Part shown: positions 5,401-64,000 of the stretch, piece by piece
Layout: every line of letters starts with the position of its first letter
Position numbering within the stretch: the first letter of the stretch is position 1
From: Tessaracoccus flavescens
GTDB lineage: Bacteria > Actinomycetota > Actinomycetes > Propionibacteriales > Propionibacteriaceae
Reading direction: 5' to 3'
NCBI RefSeq assembly: GCF_001998865.1
Contig: NZ_CP019607.1
Span: forward strand, 1,860,001 to 1,924,000
Length of the DNA stretch: 64,000 nt
Notes under the pieces: model-generated
Databases searched by the model: none
What the model was told of the DNA's origin: nothing
The model's input: the letters and a program-made list of their open reading frames with translations, nothing else
Made by a program: the position numbers and the translations under genes

Positions 5401-6480
5401 TCAGGCCTCCGTCTGGCGCGTGCGCGGGTCGAGGAACGCGTAGGCGACGTCGGCGAAAATGTTGGCGACCAGCACCGAGATCGTGATCACCAGGAACACG
5501 CCCTGCATCAGCGCGTAGTCCTTTCCGTTCGTCGCGTCGAGCAGCAACTTGCCGATGCCCGGATAGCTGAAGACCATCTCCATCACGATCGTTCCGCCGA
5601 CGATGAAGCCGAGCGAGAGCGCGAAGCTCTGGATCTGGGGGAGCACCGCGTTGCGGGCGGCGTACCTCCACAGCACCCGCCGGTCGGGCATGCCCTTGGC
5701 CTGCGCGACGGTGATGTAGTCCTCGTCGAGGACGGTCAGCATCATGTTGCGCATGCCGAGCATCCAGCCGCCGAGTGAGGCGATCACGATGGTCAGGGCG
5801 GGCAGGGTGCCGTGCCGGATCACCTGCCCGATGAACTCGAGCGAGAGCTCAGGGCTCATGCCGACGCCGTAGGCCTTGCCGATCGGGAACCACTTGAGGT
5901 TCACCGAGAACACGGCGATCGCGAGCAGTCCGAGCCAGAAGTAGGGGATGGTGCTCAGGAAAGTGGTGATGGGGATCATCACGTCGAGGCGGCTGCCCCG
6001 GCGCCATCCGATGAGCGCGCCACCCACGGTGCCGAGGGTGAACGAGACGATGGTGGCGAAGCCGACGAGACCCACCGTCCACGGAAGGGCCCCCGCGATG
6101 ACCTCCCCGACCGGGCGCAGGCCGTGCAGGAGCGAGACGCCGAGGTCCCCGCGCAGCAGGTGCGACCAGTAGTCGAGGTACTGCTGGGACAGAGTCCGGT
6201 CGGTGTCGAGGCCGAGCAGGGCGCGCAGCGCGTCCGCAGCCTCAGGAGAGACATTGCGGTTGCGGGAGAGGTAGGCGTCGACGGCGTCGCCCTTCATCAT
6301 CCGGGGCAGGAAGAAGTTGATCGTGATCGCGGCCCACAGGGTGAACAGATAGAAGAGGGCGCGGCTGCCGAGGAAGCGCCACGGGATGCGCGAGCGGCCC
6401 TTCACGGCCTTCGTCGCGGTGGTGCCGACCTCGAGCGCATCTGGCTGTGGATCGGTCAACGTTGGCTGGACGGCGCTCAT
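5401..6480 (-). CDS. ABC transporter permease, DppB-like
   Basis: 359 residues, paired permease of the Dpp-type importer. An unusually long cytoplasmic N-terminus of about 30 residues precedes the first membrane span (residues about 38-55, LFYLFTLWAAITINFFLPRM). The family LGLDTDRTLSQQYLDYWSHLLRGDLGVSL region follows, then five more spans. The EAA loop is in the segment VAQAKGMPDRRVLWRYAARNA. Its start overlaps the stop of the ATPase gene by 4 bp, so translation is coupled. Confidence 0.93.
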   Translation of the reverse strand: MSAVQPTLTDPQPDALEVGTTATKAVKGRSRIPWRFLGSRALFYLFTLWAAITINFFLPRMMKGDAVDAYLSRNRNVSPEAADALRALLGLDTDRTLSQQYLDYWSHLLRGDLGVSLLHGLRPVGEVIAGALPWTVGLVGFATIVSFTLGTVGGALIGWRRGSRLDVMIPITTFLSTIPYFWLGLLAIAVFSVNLKWFPIGKAYGVGMSPELSLEFIGQVIRHGTLPALTIVIASLGGWMLGMRNMMLTVLDEDYITVAQAKGMPDRRVLWRYAARNAVLPQIQSFALSLGFIVGGTIVMEMVFSYPGIGKLLLDATNGKDYALMQGVFLVITISVLVANIFADVAYAFLDPRTRQTEA

Positions 6481-7283
6481 CGCGCTCCTCCGTTCTTGGC
6501 CAGGGCGGCGAAGTGCGCCTCCGGGTCTGGCGAGGCGGCGCGCAGTTCGCGGGTATAGGGGTCCTGGGGGTTGAGGATGACGTCGTCGGCCGGGCCGTGC
6601 TCCACGATCCTGCCCTGGTTGAGCACGATGATCTCGTCACTGAAGTGGCGGGCCGTCGCGAGGTCGTGGGTGATGTAGAGCACGCCGAGCGCCTCTTCGC
6701 GCTGCAGGTCGGCGAGCAGGTTGAGCACTCCGAGCCGGATTGACACGTCGAGCATGGAGACGGGCTCGTCGGCGACGAGCAGCTTCGGCCGTGAGGCAAG
6801 GGCCCGCGCGATGGCGACCCGCTGGCGCTGGCCCCCCGAGAGCTCGTGCGGTCGGCGGTCGATCACGGTCTTCGGGTCGAGCCGCACGCGCTCGAGCAGA
6901 CGGCGCACTTCGGCGTCGGTCTCGGCCTTCGGCACCACGTTGTGCAGCCGGAGCGGCCGTTCGATGTGGTAGCGGATCGAGTGGTACGGGTTCAGCGAGG
7001 CGAATGGGTCTTGGAAGACCATGCGGAGCTGATGCCGGTAGGCGCGCAGTTCCCGTCCGCGTCGGGGGATGGGGGAGCCGTTGAGCAGCACCTCGCCGGA
7101 GGTGGCCCGTTCGAGCTGGGTGAGGATCTTCGCGATCGTCGACTTGCCGCTGCCGGACTGGCCGACAAGGCCGATGGTCTGCCCGGAGGAAAGCGTGAAG
7201 CTCACGTCGTCGAGCGCCTTGAGCGTTCCCGCGCCGCGCACGTTGTAGATCTTGGTGACATTGACGAACTCGAGAGTGCTCAT
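6477..7283 (-). CDS. ABC transporter ATP-binding protein, DppF-like
   Basis: 268-residue ATPase that powers the importer. Walker A is GQSGSGKST, the signature is LSGGQRQRVAIARAL and Walker B is LLVADEPVS, followed by SMLDVSIR where most relatives have SALDVSIQ. The H-loop is in YITHDLATARHF. It lacks the long C-terminal peptide-transporter extension beyond about residue 250. It overlaps the neighbouring ATPase gene by 4 bp. Confidence 0.93.
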   Translation of the reverse strand: MSTLEFVNVTKIYNVRGAGTLKALDDVSFTLSSGQTIGLVGQSGSGKSTIAKILTQLERATSGEVLLNGSPIPRRGRELRAYRHQLRMVFQDPFASLNPYHSIRYHIERPLRLHNVVPKAETDAEVRRLLERVRLDPKTVIDRRPHELSGGQRQRVAIARALASRPKLLVADEPVSMLDVSIRLGVLNLLADLQREEALGVLYITHDLATARHFSDEIIVLNQGRIVEHGPADDVILNPQDPYTRELRAASPDPEAHFAALAKNGGAR

Positions 7284-8104
7284 CGCACCAGCACCCCCTT
7301 CTCGCCGGTCAGCCGGGGGAACGAGGACAGCAGCGTCCGGGTGTACTCGTCACGCGGGTCGTTCCAGATCCGTTCGGCCGTGGCCAGCTCGACGATCTCG
7401 CCGTCCTTCATGATCGCGATCCGGTCGCTGATCTCGAGCAGCAGGGGCAGATCGTGGGTGATGAAGATGACGGAGAAGCCGAACTGGCGCCGCAGCTGGG
7501 AGATCTGGCGCAGGATCTCGCGCTGCACGAGGACGTCGAGGGCGGTGGTCGGCTCGTCCATGACCATCAGCTGCGGCCGCAGCGCCAGCGCCATGGCGAT
7601 CATGACGCGCTGCCGCATTCCTCCCGACAGTTCGTGGGGATAGGAGCGGATCCGCTGCTCGCCGACCTTGACCAGCTCAAGCAGTTCCTTGACCTCGGCA
7701 AGACGCTGCCTGCGGTTCATCTCGGGCCGGTGCACCTCGAACACGTCCTCGAGCTGCCTGCCGATCTGGACGACCGGGTTCAGCGCATTCATGGCGCCCT
7801 GGAAGACCATCGAGATCTTGTCCCAGCGGAACCGGCGCATCTCCTCGGCGTCGAGGGAGTTCACGTCGATCGCCTCGCCGGAGGCGTCGTTGAACAGGAC
7901 CGAGCCGCTCGTGATGACGGCCGGGGGCTTCAGCAGGCGCTGGATGCCGTAGGCGAGGGTGGTCTTGCCGCAGCCGCTCTCGCCAGCGAGGCCGAGAATC
8001 TCGCCGCGGTGCAGGTCGAGGCTGACGTTCTTGACCGCCTCGACGGGCGGGTCGACGTCGTAGACGACGGAGAAGTCTTGTACGGACAGGAGCGTTTCAC
8101 TCAT
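7280..8104 (-). CDS. ABC transporter ATP-binding protein, DppD-like
   Basis: Second ATPase of the importer. I chose the ATG at 8104 (MSETLLSVQDFSVVYDV) because the longer frame upstream adds sequence with no homology. 274 residues, with Walker A GESGCGKTT, signature LSGGMRQRVMIA, Walker B LMVMDEPTTALD and H-loop FITHDL. Two different ATPase subunits are normal for Dpp/Opp systems. It is separated from the lipoprotein gene by a strip holding a hairpin, which may lower its expression relative to the binding protein. Confidence 0.93.
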   Translation of the reverse strand: MSETLLSVQDFSVVYDVDPPVEAVKNVSLDLHRGEILGLAGESGCGKTTLAYGIQRLLKPPAVITSGSVLFNDASGEAIDVNSLDAEEMRRFRWDKISMVFQGAMNALNPVVQIGRQLEDVFEVHRPEMNRRQRLAEVKELLELVKVGEQRIRSYPHELSGGMRQRVMIAMALALRPQLMVMDEPTTALDVLVQREILRQISQLRRQFGFSVIFITHDLPLLLEISDRIAIMKDGEIVELATAERIWNDPRDEYTRTLLSSFPRLTGEKGVLVR

Positions 8105-49945: not shown

Positions 49946-50092
49946 GGGCGTCACAGTAATGCCGTGAGGGTGCGTTCGCGGGTGGTCGATGCCAGCGACC
50001 CGGCGACGGGAAGGAGGAGCGACCGCTCAACGACAAGGCGGTTCGCGCCAGATCGGTCACCCGTATCGGGCCCGCGCCAAGCCCGATGTCGT

Positions 50093-50690
50093 TCAGCGGG
50101 ACGGTGCCGCCGTCGTTCCCCGAACGACCAGTCCGGGCGGGATGATCACCCGGGGCTGCGAAAGCCTGGTCGTGGAACGGATCTGCTCGACGACGAGACG
50201 GACGAGCTCTTCTCCCATCCGGTGGAAGTCCTGGTGGACGGTGGTAAGCGGCGTGGGGAGGAATGCGCTGACGTTCAGGTCGTCGAAGCGGACGACCGAG
50301 ACGTCCTCAGGGACCCGGCGGCCTGCCTCGAAGAAGGCCCGGATGGCTCCTATCGCCATCTCGTCATTGGCGCAGAAGACGGAGGTGACGGTTGGGTCGG
50401 CTGCCAGCCGCCACCCAAGTTCATAGCCCGAGTCGGCGCTCCAGTCGCCGTGCAGTGCTTCCGGCGCCCGGATCCCCGCGCCTTCGAGCGTCCTGCGCCA
50501 CCCCCCGGCGCGCGCCATGGCGGGATCCGAGTCGGCAGGACCCGCGATGTGGTGAACCGTCTGATGACCAAGAGAGAGAAGGTGCGCGGTGGCCTCGCAG
50601 CTGCCCTGGGCGTGGTCAGAGCTGACGGCGGGGTAGAGGGCCATTAGGCGCGAGTCGGCAAAGAGGGTGTCACGCCGGTCTGGACAAGCG
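50093..50690 (-). pseudogene. LacI-family regulator, N-terminus lost
   Basis: C-terminal about 195 residues of a LacI/GalR regulator: ADSRLMALYPAVSSDHAQG, CEATAHLLSLGHQTVHHIAG, VFCANDEMAIGAIRAFFEAG and the end RVIIPPGLVVRGTTA. The DNA-binding domain and first half of the sugar domain (about 140 residues) are gone; the open frame continues upstream but only as complement to the LysM gene. Its position beside the sugar operon suggests it once controlled it. Confidence 0.75.
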
Positions 50691-50817
50691 TGCGACGCGG
50701 TGGTTCGCCGTCGGAGCTCGGAGGAGCGATGCTCGGCATCGGCACTCCGTGATGGGGTCGTCGTGGCGCCGCCTCGGCGCTGGCCGAGGAGCCGCACCCG
50801 CGATGGGTGGGTGCACG

Positions 50818-53532
50818 CTAGTCGGCCGTCTCCCGCTCGGTGTTGCTCGACAGGTGGATCGCGTACTGCACCCGGCGGGCGAGCTCGGGGTCGAGGTCGC
50901 GACCCGCGGCGCGGATCGAGCGGTTGAGCACGACGATGGCACGCTCCAGTTGAGGTCGTCGGCCCGCGACGGCGAGGGCGTGGATCTCCCGGACGCTGAG
51001 CAGGTCGCTCTCGGGGGACGCGAGCCTGCCGCGTCCGACGGCCCACAGGGCCATGTCGGTGTCGGAGTGTTCGATGGCACGGTCGGCAAGCACGCAGGCG
51101 GCGTCGACGATCATGGCGACCATGTCGGAACGCAGCGACTGCGCCCAGTGCCACTGGAACGCGAGCGACCCGAGGGGCTCGCCGCGCACCATCCGAAGCG
51201 CCGCCCGGAGGGCCGCGGAGGAGGCCATGTTCACGCCGCCGGCCAGCATCGCCTCGAACCTCTCCCAGTCGGAGGTCACCCTCTCATCCAGCTTGATGCG
51301 GCCGGAGTAGGCGTCGGGCAGGAATGGCGCCCCGTCGTCGGCATCGCCCAGCCAGGTGCGAAGACGGCTCATGTTGGAGCGGCGGGTGGTCTCCGCGACG
51401 AGGAGCTCGCTCACCATGACGGTGGGTGTCGCGCCTGGGTTGGAGAGCAGCCAGGCGCAGTACTCCATGCACTGGCTGACCGCCCGGGTGGGTCTGGTTC
51501 CGGCGGTGGCGAGCAGTTCGACCTCGCCGAGCAGCAGCAGCGTCGGATACTCGGGCTGGCTGGGTGGTTCGGGCATCGGGTGCTCCTCGGCGTTGGCCTC
51601 GACGCGAGGGAGGGGGAGGACGTTGGGCGGGAGGTCGTCGGTGTCGCGCCACCAGGGGGCGCGTTCCGTCTCCACCGATCCCGCGGTTCGGAAGAGCTCG
51701 ATCAGGCCGCGGCGGGCCGGTGCGGTGACCAGTTGGGGGGTGAAGCGGCTAGCGCCCCATTGCGCGGACTCCTCATCGATGGAGATCGAGGCGGCCTGGA
51801 GGTGCGGAGGATCTGTGCATTGTGCGACGACGCTGACCCCGACCGCGCCGAGGCTCAGTGCATCACCGACCGCGTCGAGGTCGGTCGGCGTGAGGGATTG
51901 CGTGAAGACGAACACGATGGGGGACCAGACCGAGGCCAGGTCGTGATCGGCACGGAGCTGTTCGAGCGTCGAACTGCGCATCTCGACCCGACGCTGCGAG
52001 CACGTGCGCGAGAGCTCGGCGAGACCGGTGGCGCTCCCGTCGACGCTGCCGATCCGCGGGTCGTCGAGGGCATCGGCCCAGTCGGCTCCGTCGACGAGCA
52101 CCAGTTGGACCCCCTCTGACCAAGGCGCGGAGGACAGCGAGGTGACCAGGCTCGAGACGGCGGCGCCTGCAGCGGGACCGTGGAAGACGGTGGCGCGCTC
52201 GGCCTCGAGGTCGATGGCGACAGGAACCTCCTCGGCATCCCAGCCGAGCACCACCGAGGTGGGCTGCTCCCGGGGTGACGGGTCGTCCGCCGAGTCCGAA
52301 TGGCTGGCAAGCGCCCCCCAGAAGCGGGTGGTCTGTTCGGTGACGGGGATGCTGCGCCGGCCGAGAGCGCGAGCGAGGAGCTGGGTCCGGCGGCGGGTGG
52401 CCACCCCTGCGACGACCCCCGCCGCGAGCAGGGCGCCCATGGGGCCGAGCAGAGCGGAGAGGTCGGGGCCGGACTCATCGACCGAGCTTTCCGCCGTCGC
52501 GCGCTCGGGGTCGACCGTCTCGGGCGGTGGGCTGACCGGAGCTGACGTGGGGAGGGTCGGGACGGCGGCGGCCTCCGTGTGGACGGGCAGCGGCGTGCTC
52601 TCGGGCGCAGGAGTCTGTTCGGCCTCCCGGGCCGAGTCATCCGGCTCCGGTCGCGCCTGCTGAGTCTCGGGTGGCGTCTGGGGCACCAACTCGGGCGTTG
52701 GCAGGGCGAGTCGCTCCGCCTCGGTGGGCGTGAGGCTGGTCATCGCCGGGGGATCGGGCAGGCGCAGGACCCAGCCGACGTCGATCTGATCGGGGTCGGC
52801 GATCTGATCACGGTTGAGCTCGTAGATCTGGGGCCAGCGTTCGCCGTCGCCGAGCGTGCGCTCCGCGATCTGCCACAGGGAGTCGTCCCGCTGCACCACG
52901 ACGACCGAATCGGCGGTTCCCGCGCTGGCGACCGCGGCCTCGTCGACCGGCAGACGCAGACGCTGCCCGGCCTCGATGCGCAGCGAGTCGTCGATGCCGG
53001 GGTTGAGTTCCACGATCTCGCGCCAACGGACGCCGTCGCCGAGTTCGCGCTCGGCCACACTCCACAGCTCGTCGCCGGCTTCGACCGTGTATGTGCGCGT
53101 CCTCGTCTCTGCGCTCGGGGCGTTCTCTGCTTCGGCGTGGCGGGTCGGGACGGGTGTGCCGAGATCGACCACCGGGGGAGGGGCGGCGTCGTCTGCGCTT
53201 GCGATTCCCGGGGACGCGACCGCGGCGAGCACCAGAGCGGCGATGGCCGGCCTGAACCAGCCCGTGCCCGGGAGCCTCAACCGGATGCGCTGCCGAGAAG
53301 CGACGGCGACGAACTCGAACACCACGGTCACTGCCACCACCAGCCAGGCCAGCCAGCCGATCACGCTCAGCAGGGCCAGCACCAGGCGGGAGTCACCGGC
53401 TGAGGTCAGAGCCCGCAGCCAGTCGACCTGCAGGAGGTGGCCAGGGTTACCCAGCGTCGCCAGCAGGTAAGGGACGCCGATGAGCAGGGCGGCGAGGACG
53501 ACAAGGGCACCCAGTGCGCGCACCGCCCTCAT
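50818..53532 (-). CDS. LysM-BTAD membrane protein of Tad locus
   Basis: 904 residues. Three membrane spans lie in the first 112 residues. Two LysM domains (about 146-195 and 210-260) bind peptidoglycan; one is YTVEAGDELWSVAERELGDG, the other QRDDSLWQIAERTLGDGERW. A long Pro/Glu/Thr-rich stretch (260-365) and a further membrane helix (about 366-386) follow. The large C-terminal part contains a bacterial transcriptional activator-like (BTAD) helical domain (about 740-880, ALRMVRGEPLGSLAFQWHWA). It ends the pilus operon. Likely an inner-membrane protein that links the assembly to the wall; the role of the BTAD part is unknown. Confidence 0.82.
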   Translation of the reverse strand: MRAVRALGALVVLAALLIGVPYLLATLGNPGHLLQVDWLRALTSAGDSRLVLALLSVIGWLAWLVVAVTVVFEFVAVASRQRIRLRLPGTGWFRPAIAALVLAAVASPGIASADDAAPPPVVDLGTPVPTRHAEAENAPSAETRTRTYTVEAGDELWSVAERELGDGVRWREIVELNPGIDDSLRIEAGQRLRLPVDEAAVASAGTADSVVVVQRDDSLWQIAERTLGDGERWPQIYELNRDQIADPDQIDVGWVLRLPDPPAMTSLTPTEAERLALPTPELVPQTPPETQQARPEPDDSAREAEQTPAPESTPLPVHTEAAAVPTLPTSAPVSPPPETVDPERATAESSVDESGPDLSALLGPMGALLAAGVVAGVATRRRTQLLARALGRRSIPVTEQTTRFWGALASHSDSADDPSPREQPTSVVLGWDAEEVPVAIDLEAERATVFHGPAAGAAVSSLVTSLSSAPWSEGVQLVLVDGADWADALDDPRIGSVDGSATGLAELSRTCSQRRVEMRSSTLEQLRADHDLASVWSPIVFVFTQSLTPTDLDAVGDALSLGAVGVSVVAQCTDPPHLQAASISIDEESAQWGASRFTPQLVTAPARRGLIELFRTAGSVETERAPWWRDTDDLPPNVLPLPRVEANAEEHPMPEPPSQPEYPTLLLLGEVELLATAGTRPTRAVSQCMEYCAWLLSNPGATPTVMVSELLVAETTRRSNMSRLRTWLGDADDGAPFLPDAYSGRIKLDERVTSDWERFEAMLAGGVNMASSAALRAALRMVRGEPLGSLAFQWHWAQSLRSDMVAMIVDAACVLADRAIEHSDTDMALWAVGRGRLASPESDLLSVREIHALAVAGRRPQLERAIVVLNRSIRAAGRDLDPELARRVQYAIHLSSNTERETAD

Positions 53533-53563
53533 GCTGCGCTCCTCACCCTCAGCATGCTCATGC

Positions 53564-53749
53564 TCAGGTGGGCAGGTTATCGGTGACGTACGCGGTGATC
53601 GCGGTGATGATGATCAGGGCGATCGCCGCGGCACCGGCGAGCAGGATCGCGTTCTCGGTGCTCTGGCTGAGCCCGCGCTCGTCGCGGCGCGGTGGCGCGC
53701 CGCGGGTGAGCTCGATGAGCAGTCCTAGCGTGCGGTGGATTCTCGACAT
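53564..53749 (-). CDS. Flp-like pilin
   Basis: 61 residues from ATG at 53749 (ribosome site AGGAGGAAC). Short basic leader, then the prepilin-type site RG-LSQSTENAI (the cleavage glycine is followed five residues later by Thr-Glu), then a hydrophobic helix (ILLAGAAAIALIIITAITAY) and a tiny tail. It fits the Flp pilin size and layout; the usual Tyr after Glu is Asn. Probably the structural subunit. Confidence 0.75.
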   Translation of the reverse strand: MSRIHRTLGLLIELTRGAPPRRDERGLSQSTENAILLAGAAAIALIIITAITAYVTDNLPT

Positions 53750-53836
53750 GGTTCCTCCTGTGTGGTGATTGTCTGGCGGTGGGTTTCGGGTCTTGCGGTT
53801 ATCCACAGATCTGGGTTCTCGGATGTGTCCACAGGC

Positions 53837-54718
53837 TCACCCCGTCCCCAACAGCGTGAGTAGGGCGGGCGTGAGGAGCGCGACACCGAGCAGCAGCGCG
53901 GGAAGAGTCATCCAGAGCGACATGGACTCGCTCGCCTCCTGCGCAGCCTCCCGCTGGCGGTTGAGGTGGGCGTCGCGCAGTTCGCGGACGCGGGCCTGTA
54001 GCACCTCCGCCAGCCCGGCGCCCTGCTCTTCGAGTTGCATCACGTCAGCGAAGTCGGAGAGTTCGGCGACGTTCCATTCGTCGGCGATGCGGCGCAGTTC
54101 GTCCCACGGCTGGCTCTGCTCCATGCGTGCCCGCTCAAGTCCGGAGGAGATGCGTCGGAAGAGCGGCGCGTCCGAGATGGAGGCCGCGTTGGCGGTTGCC
54201 TGGGCAGCCGACGCGTTGGCGAGGCGCTCCAGGACGACCAGGTCGAAGAAGGTGTGGATGCCGTCGATGGCGGCTCGCCGGTGCTGTTCGGCGCCGTTGC
54301 GCAGCCGTAGGTCGGCGATGAAGTAGCCCGCGAGGCCGCCGAGGAGGGCGAGACCGAAGGGAGCGAGCCCCGGCTGCCTGCCGAAGAGGAGTTGGGTGAG
54401 CGCCCACAGCGTCGGCAGCAGGAGGCCCGCGAGGGTCCAGACGAGCTTTTCGACGAAGAAGTCGCCGACGGTGCGCCCCTGCAGGTTGAGCAGCCGCTGC
54501 TGTGTCTGGGTGAGGGGCAGGCCGATGCCGCGATGCAGCCGGTGCCCGAGGCCTTCGAGCCCAGCTGGACGGGTGTCCGTCTCCACCTGCGCTGGCTGGC
54601 GTCGGTCGAGGGCGGCCATGGCGTCGGCAAGGCGCAACTGTGGCCGGCTCGTGCCTCGGATGATCAGGATCAGGCCGAGCCCGGCGACCATGCCGCAGGC
54701 AATGGCGATGCCCGTCAT
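53837..54718 (-). CDS. tadC: Type II secretion F-type protein, TadC-like
   Basis: 293 residues; three to four membrane spans (first one at residues 1-22, pair at about 95-140, last at 270-290) and a cytoplasmic T2SSF domain (ERARMEQSQPWDELRRIADE, ADVMQLEEQGAGLAEVLQAR). Platform protein of the Tad pilus motor. It overlaps tadB by 4 bp. Confidence 0.9.
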   Translation of the reverse strand: MTGIAIACGMVAGLGLILIIRGTSRPQLRLADAMAALDRRQPAQVETDTRPAGLEGLGHRLHRGIGLPLTQTQQRLLNLQGRTVGDFFVEKLVWTLAGLLLPTLWALTQLLFGRQPGLAPFGLALLGGLAGYFIADLRLRNGAEQHRRAAIDGIHTFFDLVVLERLANASAAQATANAASISDAPLFRRISSGLERARMEQSQPWDELRRIADEWNVAELSDFADVMQLEEQGAGLAEVLQARVRELRDAHLNRQREAAQEASESMSLWMTLPALLLGVALLTPALLTLLGTG

Positions 54719-55575
54719 GTTCCGCTCCGGAGGAAACGAGGCGCCATCGGCGGAACGGTGCGGCGGCGCAGCATGACCAGACAGCCGAGGTAGGCGAAGG
54801 CCAGCGACAGGGCGATGAGCTGGCCGAGCGGGGTGGTGTAGGCGGCGAAGAAGGTGGGGTTGAGCAGCAGGGCGCCGAGCAGCACGGCGAGCGTGATCAG
54901 CGTGACCTGCCGCACGACGGCGCGAGGCTTGGCGCGTTCGGCGGCGATCTCGCGCAGCGCCCGCAGCCGGTCCTGGATGTTGTCGGAGAGCGCGGCCAGC
55001 GTCGCCCTACCTCCGGATCCGCCCCGCGAGGAGGCGATGGCCAGTGCCGCCACCACGGCATCAGCGTCGGCAGACTCCAGTTCGTCTGCCATGGCCCAGA
55101 GGCTGTCGCGCATCGTCCAGCGCTGGTCCAGCCGCATGCAGAGTCGTGCAACAGGCTCGCGCAGTGCTGGCGAAATCTGTCGTCGGGTGGCGAAGATCGC
55201 GTCTCGGATGGACTTGCCTGCCGACAGCGATGTGGAGATCAACCGCACCCACCGATCGAGCGCGGCGAGCGTGTCGATCTCGCGTTGTGGTGGGGCCGAG
55301 AGCAGCAGCGGGATCAGGATCAGGGTCGCCGGGACGAGCAGCAGGGCCAGCAACCAGCCGGAGATGACCGCGGCGAGGACGCCGACGGCCAGAGAGACGA
55401 GGATCCACGTTTTCCTCAGCCTTGGGAGGCTTTCCCACCAACTCCTCACTCTTGTCCACAGACCTGTGGATGAACCTGTGGACGGTGGACGCTCGGCGCG
55501 GATCAGCCCCGCCAGCAGGAGGAGGACCCCGAGCCCGATGGCGCAGCCTGCTGAGATCGCGAGAGTCAGGCCCAT
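54715..55575 (-). CDS. tadB: Type II secretion F-type protein, TadB-like
   Basis: 286 residues; membrane spans at about 1-22, 60-92, 225-240 and 248-266, with a T2SSF domain between (ISTSLSAGKSIRDAIFATRR, MADELESADADAVVAALAIA). Second platform protein of the Tad machine, normal for the family. It overlaps the tadA gene by 10 bp. Confidence 0.9.
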   Translation of the reverse strand: MGLTLAISAGCAIGLGVLLLLAGLIRAERPPSTGSSTGLWTRVRSWWESLPRLRKTWILVSLAVGVLAAVISGWLLALLLVPATLILIPLLLSAPPQREIDTLAALDRWVRLISTSLSAGKSIRDAIFATRRQISPALREPVARLCMRLDQRWTMRDSLWAMADELESADADAVVAALAIASSRGGSGGRATLAALSDNIQDRLRALREIAAERAKPRAVVRQVTLITLAVLLGALLLNPTFFAAYTTPLGQLIALSLAFAYLGCLVMLRRRTVPPMAPRFLRSGT

Positions 55576-56993
55576 AGCGCCGCCCTGTCGAACTGGGCCA
55601 GCTCTGCCGACATCCCCGCCTCCGGTTGGAACAGTTCCGGCTGGGAGTCGGTGCCTGCCCGGTACACGAGGTGGGTGGTCGGTCTTCCCGCCTCCATCGA
55701 GCCGGTCAGCTGGCGAACCTCTGAGACGAACCGTCTGCGGGTCCCGCCCCGCCAGGCATCGTCCTGGAGGGTGACGTGGACCACGAAGTCCATGTGGTGG
55801 GCGATCTGACGCATGGCGTCCTCGATGCTCATCACGCGGCCCTGGGCGACGCGTCCGGCGAGCCGGTCGAGGGTCGAGGAGGCGGAGTGGGAGTGCGTCG
55901 TCGACAACGTGCCTGCGCCCGACTGCATCGCCTCGAACATCGCGCCGGCCTCGGCGCCGCGGACCTCGCCCACGACCAGGCGGGTCAGGTTCTGACGCAG
56001 AGCCTCCGGGATGAGGTCGGCGACGGTGTAGGTGCCGACGTCGCCCGCCGCCGTCTGCTCGCCCATGCCGATGCGTGCCTGCAGGGCGAGCACGTTGCGG
56101 CGGTTCTCGAGGAGATGGGTGAGCAGTTCGTAGTCGGTCTCGAGCGTGCCGAACCGTTCACTCGGATGGATGGCGGCGATCAGCGCGCGGAGCAGGGTCG
56201 TCTTGCCCGCACCCTGGTCTCCTGAGATCACGATCGACTTGCGGCCGAGCACCGCGGACTGCAGCAGCCGGGCGACCCGCTGGGGCAGCATTCCGTCCTC
56301 GGCAAGGTCGGCGAGCGTCACGTCGGTCAGGAGGTGCTGGCGGATGACGACGCTCGGCCGGTAGGAGAGACCGAAGCCGATCGCGTGCAGTCGGAAGCGG
56401 TCGCCCAGTGCGAGGGTCATCGTCGGATGCAGTTCGTCGAACGGGCGCGCAGGGGAGGCGGTCTCTCCGAGGAACCGGATCGCGTCGACCAGTTCGTCGT
56501 CGGTGTCGGCGATCGGTGCGTGCGGTTCGCGGTGCCCGTCTGTGTACTGGACCATCACGGAGTCACAGCCGTGGATCTCGATGTTCTCCGCCGTGGGGAG
56601 CTCGAAGAGTGGTTGCAGCCGGCCGTATCCGAAGATGGCGCTCTCGACGGCGTCGGCGTAGCGGCCTTCCAGTTCGAGCGGCCAGAGGGCCTCGCCCGTC
56701 TCGCCGAGGCTCTGGGCCCTTGCGTGGACGACGGAGCGGATGATCGCGCGGCCTTGGGCACGTCGGTCGGCCTCCGGCATGGGTTGCCCTCGTGATGACA
56801 TCCACTCTGTGGAGGCCTTCGTGATCAGTTCGGCGGCCTCGCGCCGCAGGGAGACGACGACCTGCCAGTCGATCTGGGCAAGTAGCTGCGCGCGTTGGGC
56901 AGGGCGGCTCGTCGGCGGGCCGGTGGTCGGGTCGCGCACCACCCCGAGCTGACCGAGCACCCCGGCAAGCGAGGGCACCCCTCCGATGCTCAT
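55566..56993 (-). CDS. tadA: Tad pilus ATPase, TadA/CpaF
   Basis: 475 residues. Type IV secretion/pilus ATPase that powers pilin assembly. N-terminal domain about 90-220 (FGYGRLQPLFELPTAENIEI); Walker A is GDQGAGKTT (258-266, Lys264); Walker B-type segment NLTRLVVGEVRGAEAGAMFE; SGAGTLSTTHSHSA supplies the His-box. A broken relative of the same gene is found at 63520-63760. Confidence 0.93.
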   Translation of the reverse strand: MSIGGVPSLAGVLGQLGVVRDPTTGPPTSRPAQRAQLLAQIDWQVVVSLRREAAELITKASTEWMSSRGQPMPEADRRAQGRAIIRSVVHARAQSLGETGEALWPLELEGRYADAVESAIFGYGRLQPLFELPTAENIEIHGCDSVMVQYTDGHREPHAPIADTDDELVDAIRFLGETASPARPFDELHPTMTLALGDRFRLHAIGFGLSYRPSVVIRQHLLTDVTLADLAEDGMLPQRVARLLQSAVLGRKSIVISGDQGAGKTTLLRALIAAIHPSERFGTLETDYELLTHLLENRRNVLALQARIGMGEQTAAGDVGTYTVADLIPEALRQNLTRLVVGEVRGAEAGAMFEAMQSGAGTLSTTHSHSASSTLDRLAGRVAQGRVMSIEDAMRQIAHHMDFVVHVTLQDDAWRGGTRRRFVSEVRQLTGSMEAGRPTTHLVYRAGTDSQPELFQPEAGMSAELAQFDRAALWA

Positions 56994-57790
56994 GCGGCAC
57001 CCCCTGAGACGGACTCCGCGAGCTCGCGCGCCCGGCTCACGCGATCGGACAGCGCCTTCGCCTCAGACCGGAAGCGGCCCATGAAGCGCGAGTCGTGGAA
57101 GCGGCGCGGCTCGTCAATGCCGTCACTGAGCACCGATGCGGACTTCGGGTCCCAGCTCTGTTCGACCCATGCCGCGAGGCCGAACTGTGCGGAGATCTCG
57201 GCGCTCGAGTAGGGCTGCCCAGGCCCGATGATGGCCAGGGCCGCCGGACGTTGGGTGGGCATCGCCCGAAGTTGGTCCTCCAGCGTGGCCAGATGGATGC
57301 GCGCCGCGGCGAGCGAGCGGAGGGAGGAACGGACGCACAAGATGACGGCGTCGGCCACGCCGAGCAGGCCAAGGGGGAGCCCGTTCACGGAGATCCGGCC
57401 CGCGTCGACGAGCACGTCCACGCCGCGGTCGCCGAGCATTTCGAAGGCCTCGCCGAGGCTGGCCCACACATGCTCGAAGAGGCGCGAGGCTCCCGCGGAG
57501 GTGAACCCGGGGAGCAGGCGACGCTGCTGCTCGCCTTGTTGGATGAGGGGAAGCGTCTGTCGCCAGATCTCCGGGGCCAACAGGGTGCCCTCGCGGTGCA
57601 GGTGGGCCAGCGCCATCAGGCCACGCCCGCCGTGGTCCATGCCGCGCAGGTAACCGGCTTGGACGGCCTGCCCGGGGTCGCGGTCGCAGTCTGCGAGGAG
57701 GACATGGCGCGGCCAGGTGAGAGCCAGGCCAAGTGCCGTCGTCGTGACGCCCGGCGAGCCGGTTCCTGAGGTGAGCACGATGACGGCCAT
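56990..57790 (-). CDS. CpaE/TadZ-like protein without P-loop lysines
   Basis: 266 residues in the MinD/ParA fold. The deviant Walker A (usually KGGxGKT) reads S8-G-T-G-S-P-G-V-T-T, with Ser and Val at the two lysine positions, so ATP hydrolysis by the normal mechanism is unlikely. The second motif is LLADCDRDPGQAVQ, and VDVLVDAGRIS lies where the switch would be. In Tad systems this protein positions the machine at the cell pole. It overlaps the neighbouring genes by 1 and 4 bp. Confidence 0.82.
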   Translation of the reverse strand: MAVIVLTSGTGSPGVTTTALGLALTWPRHVLLADCDRDPGQAVQAGYLRGMDHGGRGLMALAHLHREGTLLAPEIWRQTLPLIQQGEQQRRLLPGFTSAGASRLFEHVWASLGEAFEMLGDRGVDVLVDAGRISVNGLPLGLLGVADAVILCVRSSLRSLAAARIHLATLEDQLRAMPTQRPAALAIIGPGQPYSSAEISAQFGLAAWVEQSWDPKSASVLSDGIDEPRRFHDSRFMGRFRSEAKALSDRVSRARELAESVSGGAA

Positions 57791-58494
57791 CAGGCACCGA
57801 CCACCACGATTGCCACCTGGTCTGAGGCCGACAGCTTGGCCACGAGATCGGCGCTCTCGTCGGCCACCCGGACGTCGACCACGTAGGTGGCCCCATCGTC
57901 GAGGAGTCGTGGGGCGCTGGCGGTGACGGCCTCCACCGCGACGTCCTCGGCAGAGTCCTTGCCCCCGGTGGCCTCGGCCGCGTTCTGGGCTGGCGCCTCG
58001 AGTCCGACGATGCGCACCGTGGTGCCGAGCGGGATGTCCGTCGAGGGAAGCTTGCCGAGCGGAAGCCTCAGACCGACGAGGCTCTGACCACCTGGCAGCG
58101 GATCGTCGCCGACGTGTGCGTCGGATGGGAAGGCCCCACGGGGAAGGTCGGTGAGGGCCTGCTGGCCGACGAGGACATCGAACTTGTCTGAGCCGAGGGC
58201 ATCGACGCCAAGGTCGCCGGGTACCTCCACGACCTTGAGATCGGACTGCTCGATCACCTCCCCGCGCCGCACATCGGCTGCCATCACGATCACGGCCCGA
58301 TGGTCGGCGTTGAGGGTGTAGAGATACGCGGCCCCGAGACCGCCGAGGACGACGAGGAGCACGCCGAGGGCGATCAGCTTCGGGCTGCGCCTCGCCCGGA
58401 GTTGGACCGCGTCGGGGCGGGGCGCGGCAGGAGGCGTGGTGTCCGGCTTCGTCGGCCGCTGTGACGGCGTCTGCCGTTGTGGGCTGTGCATCAT
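57790..58494 (-). CDS. SAF-domain protein, RcpC/CpaB-like
   Basis: 234 residues from ATG at 58494 (ribosome site AGGGGAGG). A Pro-rich cytoplasmic N-terminus, one membrane span (KLIALGVLLVVLGGLGAAYL) and an extracellular SAF domain (about 72-135, VIVMAADVRRGEVIEQSDLK), as in pilus assembly proteins RcpC/CpaB. First gene of the operon, whose promoter should lie in 58495-58600. Confidence 0.82.
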   Translation of the reverse strand: MMHSPQRQTPSQRPTKPDTTPPAAPRPDAVQLRARRSPKLIALGVLLVVLGGLGAAYLYTLNADHRAVIVMAADVRRGEVIEQSDLKVVEVPGDLGVDALGSDKFDVLVGQQALTDLPRGAFPSDAHVGDDPLPGGQSLVGLRLPLGKLPSTDIPLGTTVRIVGLEAPAQNAAEATGGKDSAEDVAVEAVTASAPRLLDDGATYVVDVRVADESADLVAKLSASDQVAIVVVGA

Positions 58495-58945
58495 CGCCTC
58501 CCCTGCGTGTTCCGTCAGATTAGGCGCGGCATCGCCGCTTGTCAGGGGAGTAGGACTTCTTGTGGACAACTTCGACGGATAAAGCGCTTCAATGCCCGGC
58601 TCTGTGGATAATGTCCCGTGGGTTGACGCTCGTAATCGCGTTCATATGCTCCGCTCCCCGGTGTTTCCGAGTGAGCCAGGAGCTTGTTTGGACCGCCGCC
58701 ACTTTGGGGCGGCTGCCCGTGGAGACTGCCATGGAGCTCGGGCAGGTCCGCGCCACTCTGCCAAGCGCGGATGATGAGGGGCGATAGCCCACATGGGGCA
58801 GCGACGCCGCTCGCTCCGCAGTTTCGGGGTGTCGCTTGAAGTTGGAACGTCGGTCGCCATTGGAACTCCGTGCTATTCGACCGCCGAACCGACCTCAACG
58901 GCAGGTGGGCGATGCCGAGGGTCAAGTCCTTTTGAGTGGTGTATC
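58495..58945. other. Intergenic stretch before the pilus operon
   Basis: About 450 bp. It must hold the promoter of the minus-strand Tad operon. A small plus-strand open frame (58560-58787) ends in SQELVWTAATLGRLPVETAM but matches no family I know. No repeat or RNA is apparent. Confidence 0.4.
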
Positions 58946-60311
58946 GAGGCTTTGTCGGGTTCCTCGTGGTCGGGTGGGTTGTCAGGCGGCGAGTGCCGCG
59001 TGGCCGGGGTCGTCGGTCATGGTGTCGCTGACCTGTAGGGCGGCTTGTTCAGCCGCGGCTTTCGCGGCTGCTTCGGCGAGCATCGTGTCGGTCGCGGTCA
59101 GAGATTCCAGGCTCATGTAGCGCCGTGATTCGGTCCATTCGTCGTGCTGCTCGGCCAGCACCGCGCCGACGAGTCTGATCACCGCGACTCGGCTGGGGAA
59201 GATGCCGACGACGTCGGTGCGTCTCCGGATCTCCTTGTTGAGCCGTTCGTTCGGGTTGTTCGACCAGATCTTCTTCCACACCTCCTTCGGGAACTTCGTG
59301 AACGTGAGCACCTCATCGCGGGCGCCCTCGAGGTGCTCGGCAGCGGCCGGCAGATGGGTGGCCAGGGTGTCGATCATGTGCTCGTACTGGGCGATCACCG
59401 CCTCGACGTCGGGCTGGGTGTAGACGCTGTGCAGCAGCGCTTTCACCGCGGGCCACTGCGACTTCGGGCACACCGCCATCAGGTTCGCCGCGTAGTGGGT
59501 GCGGCAGCGCTGCCACTGCGCCGTCCCGAACACCGCCCCGGCCGCTTCGACCAGCCCGGCATGGGCATCGGAGGTGATCAGCTCCACCCCCGACAGGCCG
59601 CGGGCAGCCAGATCACGGAAGAACCCGAGCCACCCCTCCCTGGTCTCCGCGGTGCCCAGTTGCAGGCCGAGGATCTCGCGGTAGCCGTCGTTGTTGATGC
59701 CGGTGGCGACCATGGCGGCGACCTTGACGACCCGGCCGTGTTCACGCACTTTGAGCACGAGCGCGTCGGCGGCGACAAACCGATACGGCCCAGCATCGAG
59801 CGGCCGGGTGCGGAACGCTTCGACCTGCGCATCCAGGTCTTTACTCATCTCTGAGACCTGCGATTTCGACAGGCCCGTGATGCCGAGTCTGCACCAGTTT
59901 GTCCATCCGGCGGGTGGAGACGCCGAGCAGGTAGCAGGTGGCGACCACCGTGGTCAGCGCTGCCTCGGCGCGGCGGCGCCGCTCCAGGAGCCAGTCGGGA
60001 AAGTAGGTGCCTTCGCGCAGTTTCGGGATCGCGACGTCGATGGTGCCGGCGCGGGTGTCCAGGTCCCGGTGCCGGTAGCCGTTACGCCGGTTGGTGCGCT
60101 CATCCGAGCGGGCGCCGTAGGCGGCGCCGCACACGCTGTCAGCCTCGGCCGACAGCAGGGCATTGATGAAGGTGGTGAGCATCTGACGCATCAAGTCCGG
60201 CGAGGCCTGGGTGAGCAGATCGGACAGAAACGCCTGGGGGTCGATATCGTGGGGAGCGGTCATCGCGGGTGTCCCTTTCGAGTGGGATGTGAGAGTTTCC
60301 TCGAAAGCCTC
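58946..60311 (-). mobile_element. IS256-family element, defective
   Basis: Bounded by GAGGCTTT at 58946-58953 and AAAGCCTC at 60304-60311, short matching inverted ends. It carries one transposase gene with a frameshift. Different from the IS256 element at the left edge. Confidence 0.65.
58982..60263 (-). pseudogene. IS256-family transposase, frameshifted
   Basis: The first part (60263-59841, 140 residues) has DLLTQASPDLMRQMLTTFIN and RNGYRHRDLDTRAGTIDVAI; the second (59848-58982) has the catalytic YRFVAADALVLKVREHGR, ITSDAHAGLVEAAGAVFG and WSNNPNERLNKEIRRRTDVV. The frame breaks at about 59876, where QTLGITGLSKSQVSEM would be expected but the first frame reads QTRHHGPVEIAG; two bases appear missing. 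Programmed frameshifting is not usual in IS256. Confidence 0.88.
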
Positions 60312-60602
60312 CCGCGGTGACCGCTTCTACTTCGCGGTCGACACGCCAACCGGAGTCAACGTGCTGCGGGATTCGTACACAGAGATGATGGATTCGGCTC
60401 CGGCGCCGGCGTGACCCGAAATTACACGGACGCCGTTCGCGGCTGTCTTTTTGTGGATCTGTCCGTCGACGCCGGGGTCGCTGCGGGCCGGGCGGGCACA
60501 TGACTTGATAGGAGCCTGACCGGGAAGTCGTCTCACCTTTGTGCTGTCTGCACTTACCCGACCCGCGGTGACGTTCATCACCATTGGAAGGGAATCTCGT
60601 CA
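60312..60602. other. Spacer between two insertion sequences
   Basis: A plus-strand open end (RGDRFYFAVDTPTGVNVLRD, stop at 60413) may be the tail of a gene cut by the IS256 insertion, but it is too short to identify. The rest should contain the left end of the IS110-type element. Confidence 0.35.
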
Positions 60603-61873
60603 ATGACGAGCATGACACTCGACCCGCCGCTGACCAACCCGTTGCCACCAGGCTCCGAGTTGGTCGCCGGGGTCGACACGCACAAGAACACGCATCAAGT
60701 CGCGATCCTCGATCTCGTGGGCCGACCTGTCGCGGACCGAGAGTTCCGTGCCGACGGTCGCGGTTACGCGCAGATCGTCGCGTTCCTCCACGCGCACGGT
60801 GATGTCGTCCGTATCGGGGTGGAGGGAACGGGGTCGTACGGGGCTGGCCTCGCACGCGCGCTGACCACGGCGGGGCTGACCGTCATCGAAGTCGCGCGAC
60901 AGGACCGGCAAGCCCGCCGTCGTCGCGGCAAGTCCGACCCCCTCGACGCCCACCAGGCAGCGGTCGCTGTCCTCGCAGGAACGGACACCGCGATCCCAAA
61001 GTCTGGTGATGGCGCGGTCGAGTCGATGCGGATCCTCCTCGCAGAGCGGCGCTCGGCGGCCAAGGCCAGAGCGCAAGTGATGAACCAGATCCACGCGCTG
61101 CTGATCACCGCACCCGAGCTCGTGCGACAGGCGTTCCGCGCTCTCAGCGGGCAGCGTCTGGTGAACACGCTCGCCAAGACTCGGCCCGGAACAATCACGT
61201 CCCCCGATCCCGCGGTCGTCGCCCGGCAGACACTGCGACGGTTCGCGGTCCGACACCTCACGATGCAAGCCGAGATCGACCTGATAGAACAACAGTTGGA
61301 GATGCTCGTCCGGCAGGTCAACCCCACGCTGCTGTCCCTGAGCGGAGTCGGTCCTGTCACCGCAGCGACGCTCCTGGTCGCCGCGGGCGACAACCCCGAG
61401 CGGCTCGGAACCCGCGCCAGCTTCGCCGCTCTCGCCGGTGTCGCCCCGATCCCCGCCTCCTCCGGACAACGCACACGGCATCGACTCTCTCGCGGCGGGA
61501 CCGGCACGCGAACGCCGCGCTGCACCGGATTGTGCTGTTGCGCATGCGGCATCGCGAGCCTCGGACGATGGCCTACTTCGAGAGGCGTCGTTCGGAGCAA
61601 CTCACCGACCGTGACATCATGCGCTGCCTCAAACGACACGTCGCGAACGAGATCTATGCCGCTCTGCTCAATCCCGCCACCGACAATCCCGTCGGGCGCG
61701 AACTCCGAGCACGCCGACAAGCGAAAGGCATCCCGATCAGCGTTCTCGCCGCCACTCTCGGCGTCCCCTACCAGCGGCTCCGACGACTCGAGATCGGCAC
61801 TCGCGCCGACCCTGAACTCGAGGCCCGAGCGACCGCCATCCTGGAGCAGATCAGCCCGCCACTGGCCGCTTGA
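60603..61873 (+). pseudogene. IS110-family transposase, frameshifted
   Basis: RuvC-like DEDD N-terminal domain (VAGVDTHKNTHQVAILDLVG, IGVEGTGSYGAGLARALTTA) and C-terminal transposase_20 domain (LLSLSGVGPVTAATLLVAAG, FAALAGVAPIPASSGQRTRH). At about 61500 the frame slips: RLSRGG should run on to DRHANAALHRIVLLRMRH, but one G seems missing. The later part, read in the other frame to 61873, ends with an XRE-like segment GIPISVLAATLGVPYQRLRR as in many actinobacterial relatives. Confidence 0.85.
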
Positions 61874-62040
61874 CAGCAATAGGAGCATCCACTCTGCCGG
61901 ACGCAACTGATGCCGAGGGGGAGAACGAGCTGTCACAGGCGGAACTACAGTCGTGCGGTTTCACGTTCCCGCTTGTCTCAGCGATCCGTTAATCTGGAGT
62001 TGATGGATCTTCGCCCAGTGTCTTAGAGTCAGGAGGCGGC

Positions 62041-62397
62041 GTGGCCTCGACCTGCACCGAGTGGGATTGGTGGAAGGCATCCCCCGAGAGCCCCAACAGC
62101 AAACCGCTCAAGCTCTTCCGAAAACTGCCCGCGCGTGCCCAGGGTGCCTTGTTCCGGATGATGCAACGATGGATTTCGGGTGATCTCAGGCCCGACGGGG
62201 GAGACTGCAAGTCACTGGGTAACGGGGTCTACTACTTCCGTTACCGCGACGGGAACAACCAGTATCGCGTTTACTTCAAGATGGTGGGGACGACGGCTCT
62301 CGGGCTCCATGCGATCTACAAGAACAAGCAACGGATCCCGCAAGAGGTGATGGACGTCGTGATGGAACGGGCTAGCTCGGGAACTGCACGGACGTAG
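62041..62397 (+). CDS. HigB/RelE-type toxin of TAC module
   Basis: 118 residues from GTG at 62041 with ribosome site AGGAGGCGGC. HigB/Gp49-like fold: LPARAQGALFRMMQRWISG, then DCKSLGNGVYYFRYRDGNNQ, YRVYFKMV and LHAIYKNKQRIPQEVMDVVM. Family members are ribosome-dependent mRNA endonucleases. The order toxin, antitoxin, SecB-like chaperone matches the tripartite TAC module of Mycobacterium tuberculosis (Rv1955-Rv1957). Confidence 0.87.
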   Translation: MASTCTEWDWWKASPESPNSKPLKLFRKLPARAQGALFRMMQRWISGDLRPDGGDCKSLGNGVYYFRYRDGNNQYRVYFKMVGTTALGLHAIYKNKQRIPQEVMDVVMERASSGTART

Positions 62398-62469
62398 GAG
62401 TTCGCGGCGGGCTTCAAGCCCCACCCAACTGTTCGCTCAGGCTGGCTGGTCTTGGCCTAGAACAGCAGG

Positions 62470-62487
62470 TATCGTTAGAAACCGATA
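62470..62487. promoter_or_regulatory. Possible operator TATCG-N8-CGATA
   Basis: Inverted repeat TATCG/CGATA in the 126-bp gap between toxin and antitoxin genes. The gap is long for an operon, so the antitoxin and chaperone may have their own promoter with an operator for the antitoxin. Weak evidence: arms of 5 bp. Confidence 0.35.
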
Positions 62488-62523
62488 GCTCTCCCCCAGG
62501 CTGTCGTGAGGAGGAGGAGGCAA

Positions 62524-62931
62524 ATGAACGACTTCATGCGTTCTATGGAGCGCCTGCTTGAAGAGGATGCTGAGTTCCGGGCTGGCTACGACGATGCTGT
62601 CGAGCGCGAGCGGATGATCGCGACGCTTGTCGAGTGGCGCGACAAGGCGGGCATGAGTCAGAAGCAGGTCGCCAAGGCTATGGGTGTCGGGCAGTCGACC
62701 ATCTCCCAATTTGAGGGCTCCACCGACCCGCGCCTGTCCACCGTGCAGCGGTACGCGCGTGCTGTGGGCGCTAAGGCGCACTTCCTCGTTGGGTCTACCC
62801 CCAGCCCTGCCCAGGCGAACTGGCACGTTACGGCTCCGACCCAGCCGTCGAGGCGGGTTTGGGAAGGGGACACTGCTTCCACTACCACCCGTGTCGGAAA
62901 CAGCCGCTCCGCGTTTGCAAAGGCAGCCTGA
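62524..62931 (+). CDS. HigA-type antitoxin with C-terminal extension
   Basis: 135 residues; ATG at 62524 after an exceptionally strong GGAGGAGGAGG ribosome site. XRE helix-turn-helix at about 30-84 (WRDKAGMSQKQVAKAMGVGQ, STISQFEGSTDPRLSTVQRY). The last about 45 residues (after HFLVGSTP) are disordered, with Trp in QANWHVTAPTQPSRRVWEGD. In TAC antitoxins such a tail is the chaperone-addiction (ChAD) segment bound by the SecB-like partner; that this one does the same is inference. The stop overlaps the chaperone start by one base. Confidence 0.87.
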   Translation: MNDFMRSMERLLEEDAEFRAGYDDAVERERMIATLVEWRDKAGMSQKQVAKAMGVGQSTISQFEGSTDPRLSTVQRYARAVGAKAHFLVGSTPSPAQANWHVTAPTQPSRRVWEGDTASTTTRVGNSRSAFAKAA

Positions 62932-63437
62932 TGTCGGAGACGTCTCTCCGTCTGCTGGCGTCGCGGATCGCTGGGCAGGCGGATCTCAAGGATGTGCGGA
63001 CGGCGAAACTCCACGCCGAGATGGCTTTCCCCCCGGCCCCTGGCGCACGGCTTTCATACGAACTGCGCGCCGACTTTGAGTATGGCTTGCCAGAGGAAGA
63101 CGGCGACCCTACTGTCATCTCGGGCGAGTACACCATTCCCTTGTGGATCATTGACGAAGATGGCGAGCGGGACCAGTTCGCAGAACTGTCGTTCGCTCTC
63201 GTGGCGCTTTACGAGGTTCCCGACTCGCCGACGGGGGAGCCCTATCGGCCCGAGGAATGGAACGCGTTCGTCCAGACGACCGGGCAGTTCGCCCTGTATC
63301 CCTTCGCTCGTGAGACAGCTTCGATGCTTTCCACCCGTCTTGGGGTCCCGCCCCTCACGTTAGGGATGCTTCGTCTGCGGCTGGATGAGGATGAGGTGCA
63401 CGACGAGCTTGCGGTTCACGACCCGCGTCCTGACTAG
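62931..63437 (+). CDS. SecB-like chaperone of TAC module
   Basis: 168 residues. The body fits a SecB-like fold (SYELRADFEYGLPEED, EYTIPLWIIDEDGERDQF, SFALVALYEVPDSP), and the end has the SecB-type helix ALYPFARETASMLSTRLGVPPLTLGML, like the FPYARExxSxLxxRxGxPPLxLxxI pattern of SecB. The overlap TGATG couples it to the antitoxin. In the known TAC system the chaperone protects the antitoxin from degradation and so controls the toxin. Actinobacteria lack a housekeeping SecB, so a dedicated role is likely. Confidence 0.82.
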   Translation: MSETSLRLLASRIAGQADLKDVRTAKLHAEMAFPPAPGARLSYELRADFEYGLPEEDGDPTVISGEYTIPLWIIDEDGERDQFAELSFALVALYEVPDSPTGEPYRPEEWNAFVQTTGQFALYPFARETASMLSTRLGVPPLTLGMLRLRLDEDEVHDELAVHDPRPD

Positions 63438-63914
63438 GGCGCGGTCCCTGAAGAACTGATCATCCATCGGCATGGAGCGGCCAACCGGCTCACTCGGCGG
63501 GATGACCGCGGCCAACGCGCGGAGCGACCCCTTGCCCCGCGCGGACGAGGAGGCCTCACTGACGGATCGCGTCGACCATTTCGTCGTCAGTGTCGGTGAA
63601 CAAGTGCGCGGGTCCGCCGTGCCCGTCGTACTGCACGGAACACGGTGGCGCAGCCGCGGATCTCGAGGTCTTGTGAGTCGGGAGCTCTGGGGGCAGCCGG
63701 TGGCATCTGAAGATGGCGTCGAGCCGCGAGCGAACTCGACGGCCCGCTCAGCCTCGTCCGGCGCGCCCCTGGCAGGGGCCGGGTTCGATCCGCGCACCCA
63801 AAGCTGCGCGACCCCGCTGCACGGATGCTCACCTGGCGGGGGTAGAGTTTGACTTCCTGAGATTCCTGAGAGAATCTTGGGGAGGTCAGTACGACAAGTT
63901 GTAGGGAGTGCTCT
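63438..63914 (-). pseudogene. Decayed fragment of a second tadA/cpaF
   Basis: Within about 63520-63760 the minus strand keeps clear traces of TadA: AIFRCHR near the AIFGYGR site, then SVQYDGHGGPA and FTDTDDEMVDAIRQ, which match VMVQYTDGHREP and ADTDDELVDAIRF in the intact gene (56500-56650). Frameshifts and stops break it, including a TGA just after VDAIRQ. The rest of the interval has no gene I can support. Confidence 0.72.
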
Positions 63915-64000
63915 GTGCGCAAGTGGATCGCCGCCGCGGCCGTCGGCGTCACCGCAGCCCTCGCCTCCGTCGTCGCGACGACCGCCACCGCACTTCCGCT
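63915..64000 (+). CDS. Exported protein, start only (cut by window edge)
   Basis: GTG at 63915 with GGGAG upstream. The 28 visible residues are a signal peptide (MRKWIAAAAVGVTAALASVV, then ATTATALP). The function cannot be told from this part. Confidence 0.7.
   Translation, partial: MRKWIAAAAVGVTAALASVVATTATALP

Follow-up and report, generated by a model that had tools for sequence, protein, structure and literature searches.

Among described toxin-antitoxin-chaperone (TAC) systems, the closest counterpart of the locus considered here is Rv1955-Rv1957 of Mycobacterium tuberculosis (HigB1, HigA1 and SecB-TA), in which the C-terminus of HigA1 is reported to be a ClpX degron with a Val-Ala end, situated within the chaperone-binding tail (PMC8165232), a placement likewise given for the ClpXP degron in PMC9753991. 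The tails (ChADs) of published systems are variable (PMC5105189). HigBAC of Escherichia coli C496 and CmdTAC of E. coli ECOR22 also combine a toxin, an antitoxin and a SecB-like chaperone, the latter reported as a phage sensor: the lambda major tail protein activates HigBAC (PMC11980606), and CmdTAC senses a capsid protein (PMC11618068). Here, we describe a three-gene unit at positions 62041-63437 of a 64,000-nucleotide stretch of Tessaracoccus flavescens DNA (contig NZ_CP019607.1, positions 1,860,001 to 1,924,000; hereafter the window, meaning the whole of this stretch), which is very probably a TAC operon of the HigBA-SecB kind, a reading supported by both sequence and predicted fold.

The unit was confirmed to be intact, with toxin, antitoxin and SecB-like genes following one another in a single orientation, as in M. 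tuberculosis (coordinates are collected in Table 1). This gene order had been proposed in a preliminary description of the window; it was upheld by separate database matches for each gene, and the same order recurs at seven other loci. Full TACs of the same kind were found at L003, L004, L005, L006, L007, L010 and on the Rhodococcus plasmid NZ_CP108045 (L067). The one-base overlap that the same description had noted was also present, the antitoxin stop and chaperone start sharing a base in TGATG, as were the ribosome-site sequence GGAGGAGGAGG 5' of the antitoxin ATG and the SecB C-terminal pattern FARETASMLSTRLGVPP in the third protein. Purine-rich stretches resembling ribosome-binding sites precede both the toxin and the antitoxin genes, and it is possible that these favour the antitoxin over the toxin. 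Palindromes of the 126-base spacer between these two genes were no better than those of shuffled sequences, the best of them (62409-62421) being equalled in 110 of 300 shuffles, and none was found 5' of the toxin gene.

The SecB-like identity suggested for the third protein was borne out by a sequence match to Rv1957 and by the match of its predicted structure to the SecB fold. Residues D27, R29, L47, Y49, F67, L108 and L154-L157 of Rv1957 are among those important for tail binding (PMC6377645), and the corresponding residues of the window chaperone are D21, R23, L41, Y43, Thr61, L93 and V139-P140-P141-L142, the last four aligning with L154, P155, P156 and L157. In an alignment of 67 rows, D27 was kept in 65, R29 in 61, L47 in 64, L108 in 62, P155 and L157 in all 67, P156 in 51 and Y49 in 55 (with nine Trp and three Phe in the remainder). 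The L154 position holds Leu in 58 rows, Val in eight, including that of the window, and Ile in one, and the F67 column is mixed, with 27 Phe, 26 Leu and others. TAC chaperones tested elsewhere can replace E. coli SecB (PMC5105189), and the family profile shows no antitoxin at six loci whose chaperone matches are weak (L011, L012, L021, L022, L023 and L025, at most 46.5 bits); both points would suit a third protein that serves chiefly in export or as a general chaperone and lies beside a toxin-antitoxin pair by chance. Such an arrangement is nonetheless extremely unlikely, given the one-base overlap with the antitoxin gene and the presence of an antitoxin directly before the chaperone at all seven loci with strong chaperone matches. 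A PF02556 search of the host genome returned nothing at E 0.001, which also tells against a general chaperone, but the search missed the TAC chaperone itself and therefore says little.

The first protein belongs to the same family as HigB1, matching Pfam Gp49 with 32.6 bits (cut-off 23.9) and HigB1 with E = 4.5e-12. Catalytic-site residue roles are taken from the work on HigB1 (PMC9098466), and in an alignment read by eye, with a deduced numbering offset of 6, six of the nine listed residues were identical: K57, R67, N72, R76, K94 and Q97 of the toxin correspond to K58, R68, N73, R77, K95 and Q98, and R98 stands for K99. The K95 position is Ala in the PDB chains of HigB1, apparently reflecting the use of a K95A mutant. 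The toxin is predicted to be an RNase of the HigB/RelE type.

The second protein comprises a helix-turn-helix (HTH) domain and a C-terminal extension. In a structural model built from a 23-row alignment the HTH part was confident and disorder began at about residue 91, with mean pLDDT values of 55, 49, 43, 46 and 50 over the last five blocks and values below 50 at residues 100-103 and 106-128, in agreement with the disordered tail first proposed. That tail had also been described as unlike known ones; it does differ from the mycobacterial tail, though published ChADs are themselves variable. The Trp-His of W108-H109 in M. tuberculosis is found in the window tail too, unlike the Trp-x-Arg-x3-Tyr motif (W108, R110 and Y114), which was absent from the last 75 residues of all 29 distinct antitoxins compared. 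By the same variability, lack of this motif does not exclude a TAC. Two other tail types were recognized: W-x(6-8)-Q-[PR]-x-R-x(2-3)-W in six of the 29, the window included, and D-W-[VI]-x(2-7)-Y in 16, with seven fitting neither.

An ordinary two-part HigBA pair, in which the SecB-like gene helps without being required and the antitoxin works without a chaperone, would be consistent with a window tail that is unlike the tail whose addiction was measured. Within the family, the family profile shows no chaperone at nine of the 24 loci with an antitoxin-like gene, two of which (L034 and L039) still encode longer proteins with tail-like ends; the tail alone is therefore no proof of a chaperone partner. 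We nevertheless consider a two-part pair improbable, as classical-looking antitoxins without a chaperone (L042, L043, L045, L046 and L049, four of the five with a toxin-like partner) end soon after the HTH domain, whereas the antitoxin is tailed at every one of the seven strong-chaperone loci and the chaperone contact residues of the window protein are kept.

The pairing of tails with chaperones was followed in a tree of 28 chaperones, 17 of which were paired with an antitoxin, eight by a locus showing both genes or by the antitoxin's contig and nine solely through contigs of equal length, an indirect criterion (two chaperones fit the antitoxin P0024, and P0059 was used). Of the paired chaperones, the three that go with the first tail type share a supported group of five rows (96/95) with two unpaired ones, and all three have Val at the L154 position, where the 14 other paired chaperones have Leu. 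Val also occurs there in the unpaired P0003, P0005, P0006, P0008 and P0011, which all belong to the same broader group, of ten rows. These sequence patterns fit a matched change of tail and chaperone, which counts as a single event since the chaperones of the first tail type form one clade.

The extreme C-terminus of the antitoxin resembles an ssrA tag. The tmRNA tag of the host genome is ANNNRTNFALAA, and five of its last eight positions are identical in the antitoxin end; the host carries both a ClpX gene (637.8 bits) and a tmRNA gene, and the end may be a ClpXP degron, alanine-ending like that of HigA1 but with FAKAA in place of the reported Val-Ala. Across the 29 antitoxins there is an aromatic residue at -5 in 26, a final Ala in 27 and Ala-Ala in 20, and the pattern [FYW][AGS][LKM].[AS]-end, composed after the alignment was seen, fits 25, compared with a mean of 0.03 in shuffled 45-residue tails (0 of 20,000 shuffles reached the observed number). 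Among 12 representatives with below 50% identity it fits eight (shuffle mean 0.01, again 0 of 20,000). In 168 background genes, taken as open frames of at least 120 amino acids with third-position GC (GC3) above 0.85 from the window and from the retrieved loci other than viral ones, the pattern was never seen, and a final Ala occurred in 39, Ala-Ala in seven and an aromatic at -5 in ten. A near-copy (P0013) and a fragment (P0015) were excluded before counting, L006 equals P0026, and a chaperone neighbour was established for all but 12 of the 29. As full-length similarity to the window antitoxin was the route to most of the 29, like ends are favoured among them; in the fairer sample of seven loci found through the chaperone, the pattern fits five (FALGA, WALVA, YSLAA, FGLAA and YGLAS) and not WDLTA or AANAR. 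No description of a tag-like end across non-mycobacterial TAC antitoxins was found in the open-licence literature searched.

A bolder proposal is that the antitoxin gene itself encodes a copy of the ssrA tag as the C-terminus of its product, such that antitoxin lifetime would be set by competition for ClpXP with tmRNA-tagged proteins. Since mRNA cleavage by a HigB toxin takes place in the ribosome, it should produce non-stop ribosomes and so add to the pool of tagged protein. ClpXP would then be occupied, the antitoxin would escape degradation and the toxin would be shut off again, so that actinobacterial TACs would have in common a feedback that limits itself. We regard this as unlikely.

In growing cells, a SecB-like tetramer would bind the disordered tail of the nascent antitoxin, allow it to fold and cover the tail. 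The antitoxin, with its predicted need for the chaperone, would keep the toxin inactive and probably represses the operon, as other HTH antitoxins do. Were the chaperone drawn off by unfolded proteins or, as happens in known anti-phage TACs, by a protein of a phage, the tail would be exposed, the ssrA-like end could be taken by ClpXP and the antitoxin lost, and the freed HigB toxin would cleave mRNA at the A site of the ribosome and stop growth. A phage-sensing role for the window unit is plausible by analogy, because relatives adjoin defence genes and HigBAC and CmdTAC sense phage proteins. These two systems are likened to the window unit by description rather than by sequence, and CmdT is an ADP-ribosyltransferase, unlike the HigB-type toxin here. 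Neighbours were compared for selected genes, nine proteins from six loci against Pfam and six neighbour proteins from four relatives' loci against PADLOC. In Arachnia sp. 2-217 (L003), a TAC made up of these three families in unchanged order, with a chaperone of 41-44% identity and a different tail type, has genes matching PD-Lambda-5 A (515.8 bits) and B (353.2 bits) roughly 350 bases behind it (positions 5814-8086 of that locus). The Rhodococcus plasmid TAC, likewise of the same families and order with a chaperone of 29% identity and a different tail type, is followed by an AbiD-type gene (215.2 bits).

Several observations weigh against a functional HigBA-SecB operon of this kind. The third protein does not qualify as a canonical SecB by the Pfam model alone (PF02556, 13.1 bits, cut-off 26); 33 TAC chaperones are reported to fall outside PF02556 (PMC4257090). 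Neither NCBIfam nor PADLOC offers any family for this protein, and its one PHROGs match was weak (E 0.03). The NCBIfam match of the toxin is below the cut-off (17.5 against 62.85 bits), and Y65 and I92 occupy the positions of HigB1 E66 and F93. At the positions of R110 and Y114 in the mycobacterial tail, the window antitoxin has no equivalent residues. The antitoxin ends in K-A-A and not L-A-A, and likeness to the tag of each antitoxin's own host is uneven, being 6/8 in L006, 5/8 in the window and L003, 4/8 in L004, 3/8 in L005 and L010 and 2/8 in L007. PADLOC matches occurred at only two of the four relatives' loci (three proteins), and a sigma-70 promoter and terminator scan, which may not suit this host, found none.

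The chaperone is patchily distributed. The window chaperone as query matched two of 60 genomes, one being its own, and the family profile matched 12 of 198 genomes of the bacterial family, with more than 100 bits only in its own genome, G032 (same genus) and G122. In the phylum sample five of 396 genomes matched, only its own with more than 40 bits. A protein collection, in which scoring was limited to the 7995 candidates with the most words in common, yielded 186 relatives at E 1e-6, 120 of them listed. Plasmids gave one relative, that of Rhodococcus; phage records gave none at the thresholds used, and none of 24 pattern stretches in viral contigs was confirmed as a chaperone relative.

The antitoxin P0016 of Propionibacterium freudenreichii is 54% identical to that of the window along its entire length; it too has this tail motif and ends in FAKAA. 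No chaperone named from this species was among the 120 relatives listed, and searches of plasmids, viral contigs and phages with P0016 found only places matching residues up to 112. A second TAC-like arrangement was observed in Propionibacteriaceae at 12 loci (L030, L031, L032, L033, L035, L036, L037, L038, L040, L041, L047 and L048), consisting of an upstream frame of 147-185 amino acids (in 11 of the 12, L036 being unclear), a tailed HTH antitoxin and a SecB-like protein. The SecB-like proteins are very distant (13.7-29.8 bits with the window family profile), and three of the upstream proteins gave nothing above cut-off in Pfam. Eight of the 12 antitoxins end in Ala and one has the tag-like pattern.

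Table 1. Coordinates of the TAC genes, their candidate signals and the adjoining transposase genes in the window
Feature	Position	Strand	Remarks
Toxin gene	62041-62397	+	GTG start, 118 amino acids, open frame; Pfam Gp49, HigB-type
Antitoxin gene	62524-62931	+	ATG start, 135 amino acids, open frame; HigA-type, HTH_3 at residues 37-82
Chaperone gene	62931-63437	+	ATG start, 168 amino acids, open frame; SecB-like
AGGAGG ribosome-binding-like site of toxin gene	62031-62036	+	From sequence; 4 bases 5' of GTG
GGAGGAGGAGG ribosome-binding-like site of antitoxin gene	62510-62520	+	From sequence; directly 5' of ATG
Toxin-antitoxin spacer	62398-62523	+	126 bases
TATCG-N8-CGATA, weak operator candidate only	62470-62487	+	Scores below best palindrome of spacer
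Candidate chaperone-binding part of tail, WHVTAPTQPSRRVW	62821-62862	+	Residues 100-113; motif in 6 of 29 antitoxins, disorder; putative binding
ssrA-tag-like C-terminus RSAFAKAA, candidate ClpXP degron	62905-62928	+	Residues 128-135; putative degradation signal
IS110-type transposase gene	60603-61910		Directly upstream of TAC
Mutator transposase, split over two frames	58982-60263		Upstream of TAC

The position of the unit at a transposon-rich edge agrees with the preliminary description, IS110-type and Mutator transposase genes lying directly upstream. Carriage by mobile elements, as also proposed there, is less well supported. The TAC genes have lower GC (0.620 over 62041-63437 against 0.699 over 50001-58569 and 0.686 for the whole window) and lower GC3 (0.73-0.77 against 0.81-0.95 in the secretion-like genes before and the first genes after), their presence is patchy and insertion sequences (IS) adjoin them; yet no enclosing ends were seen within 58500-64000 and the IS110 match stops short of the TAC. 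The segment 60400-61894 has a 100% identical copy at C1:1691304-1692798 on the same chromosome, the match stopping at about 61894, some 146 bases before the toxin start. A composite transposon around the TAC was rejected on this ground and in view of the lack of a convincing enclosing end pair in 58500-64000, the part of its surroundings searched, which ends with the window. Horizontal gain of the TAC fits the data, the support being circumstantial and indicating no vehicle.

The nearness of the IS110 insertion, the split Mutator transposase and the Y65 and I92 substitutions could point to a decaying module, its toxin weak or silent after an insertion just upstream and its genes persisting passively. 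This is very unlikely, however, as all three TAC frames are open, the E66A change lowers HigB1 activity only in part (PMC9098466) and an antitoxin 99% identical to that of the window (P0013) exists on another contig. The IS110-type transposase frame itself appears broken near 61.5 kb, with a C-terminal-looking part in another frame (61532-61873). Further upstream, a minus-strand cluster (50818-58569) encodes a T2SSE-type ATPase, two T2SSF-like proteins (one below cut-off) and SAF-domain and LysM proteins.

The T. flavescens system is thus of a known kind, of which variable tails are expected. With it, actinobacterial TACs outside the mycobacteria gain readable tails, of at least two types besides the mycobacterial one, set against one conserved chaperone surface, and this natural variation would allow the specificity between chaperone and antitoxin to be studied. 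The recurring tag-like end, if it is a ClpXP degron, would tie TAC activation to trans-translation and protease load.
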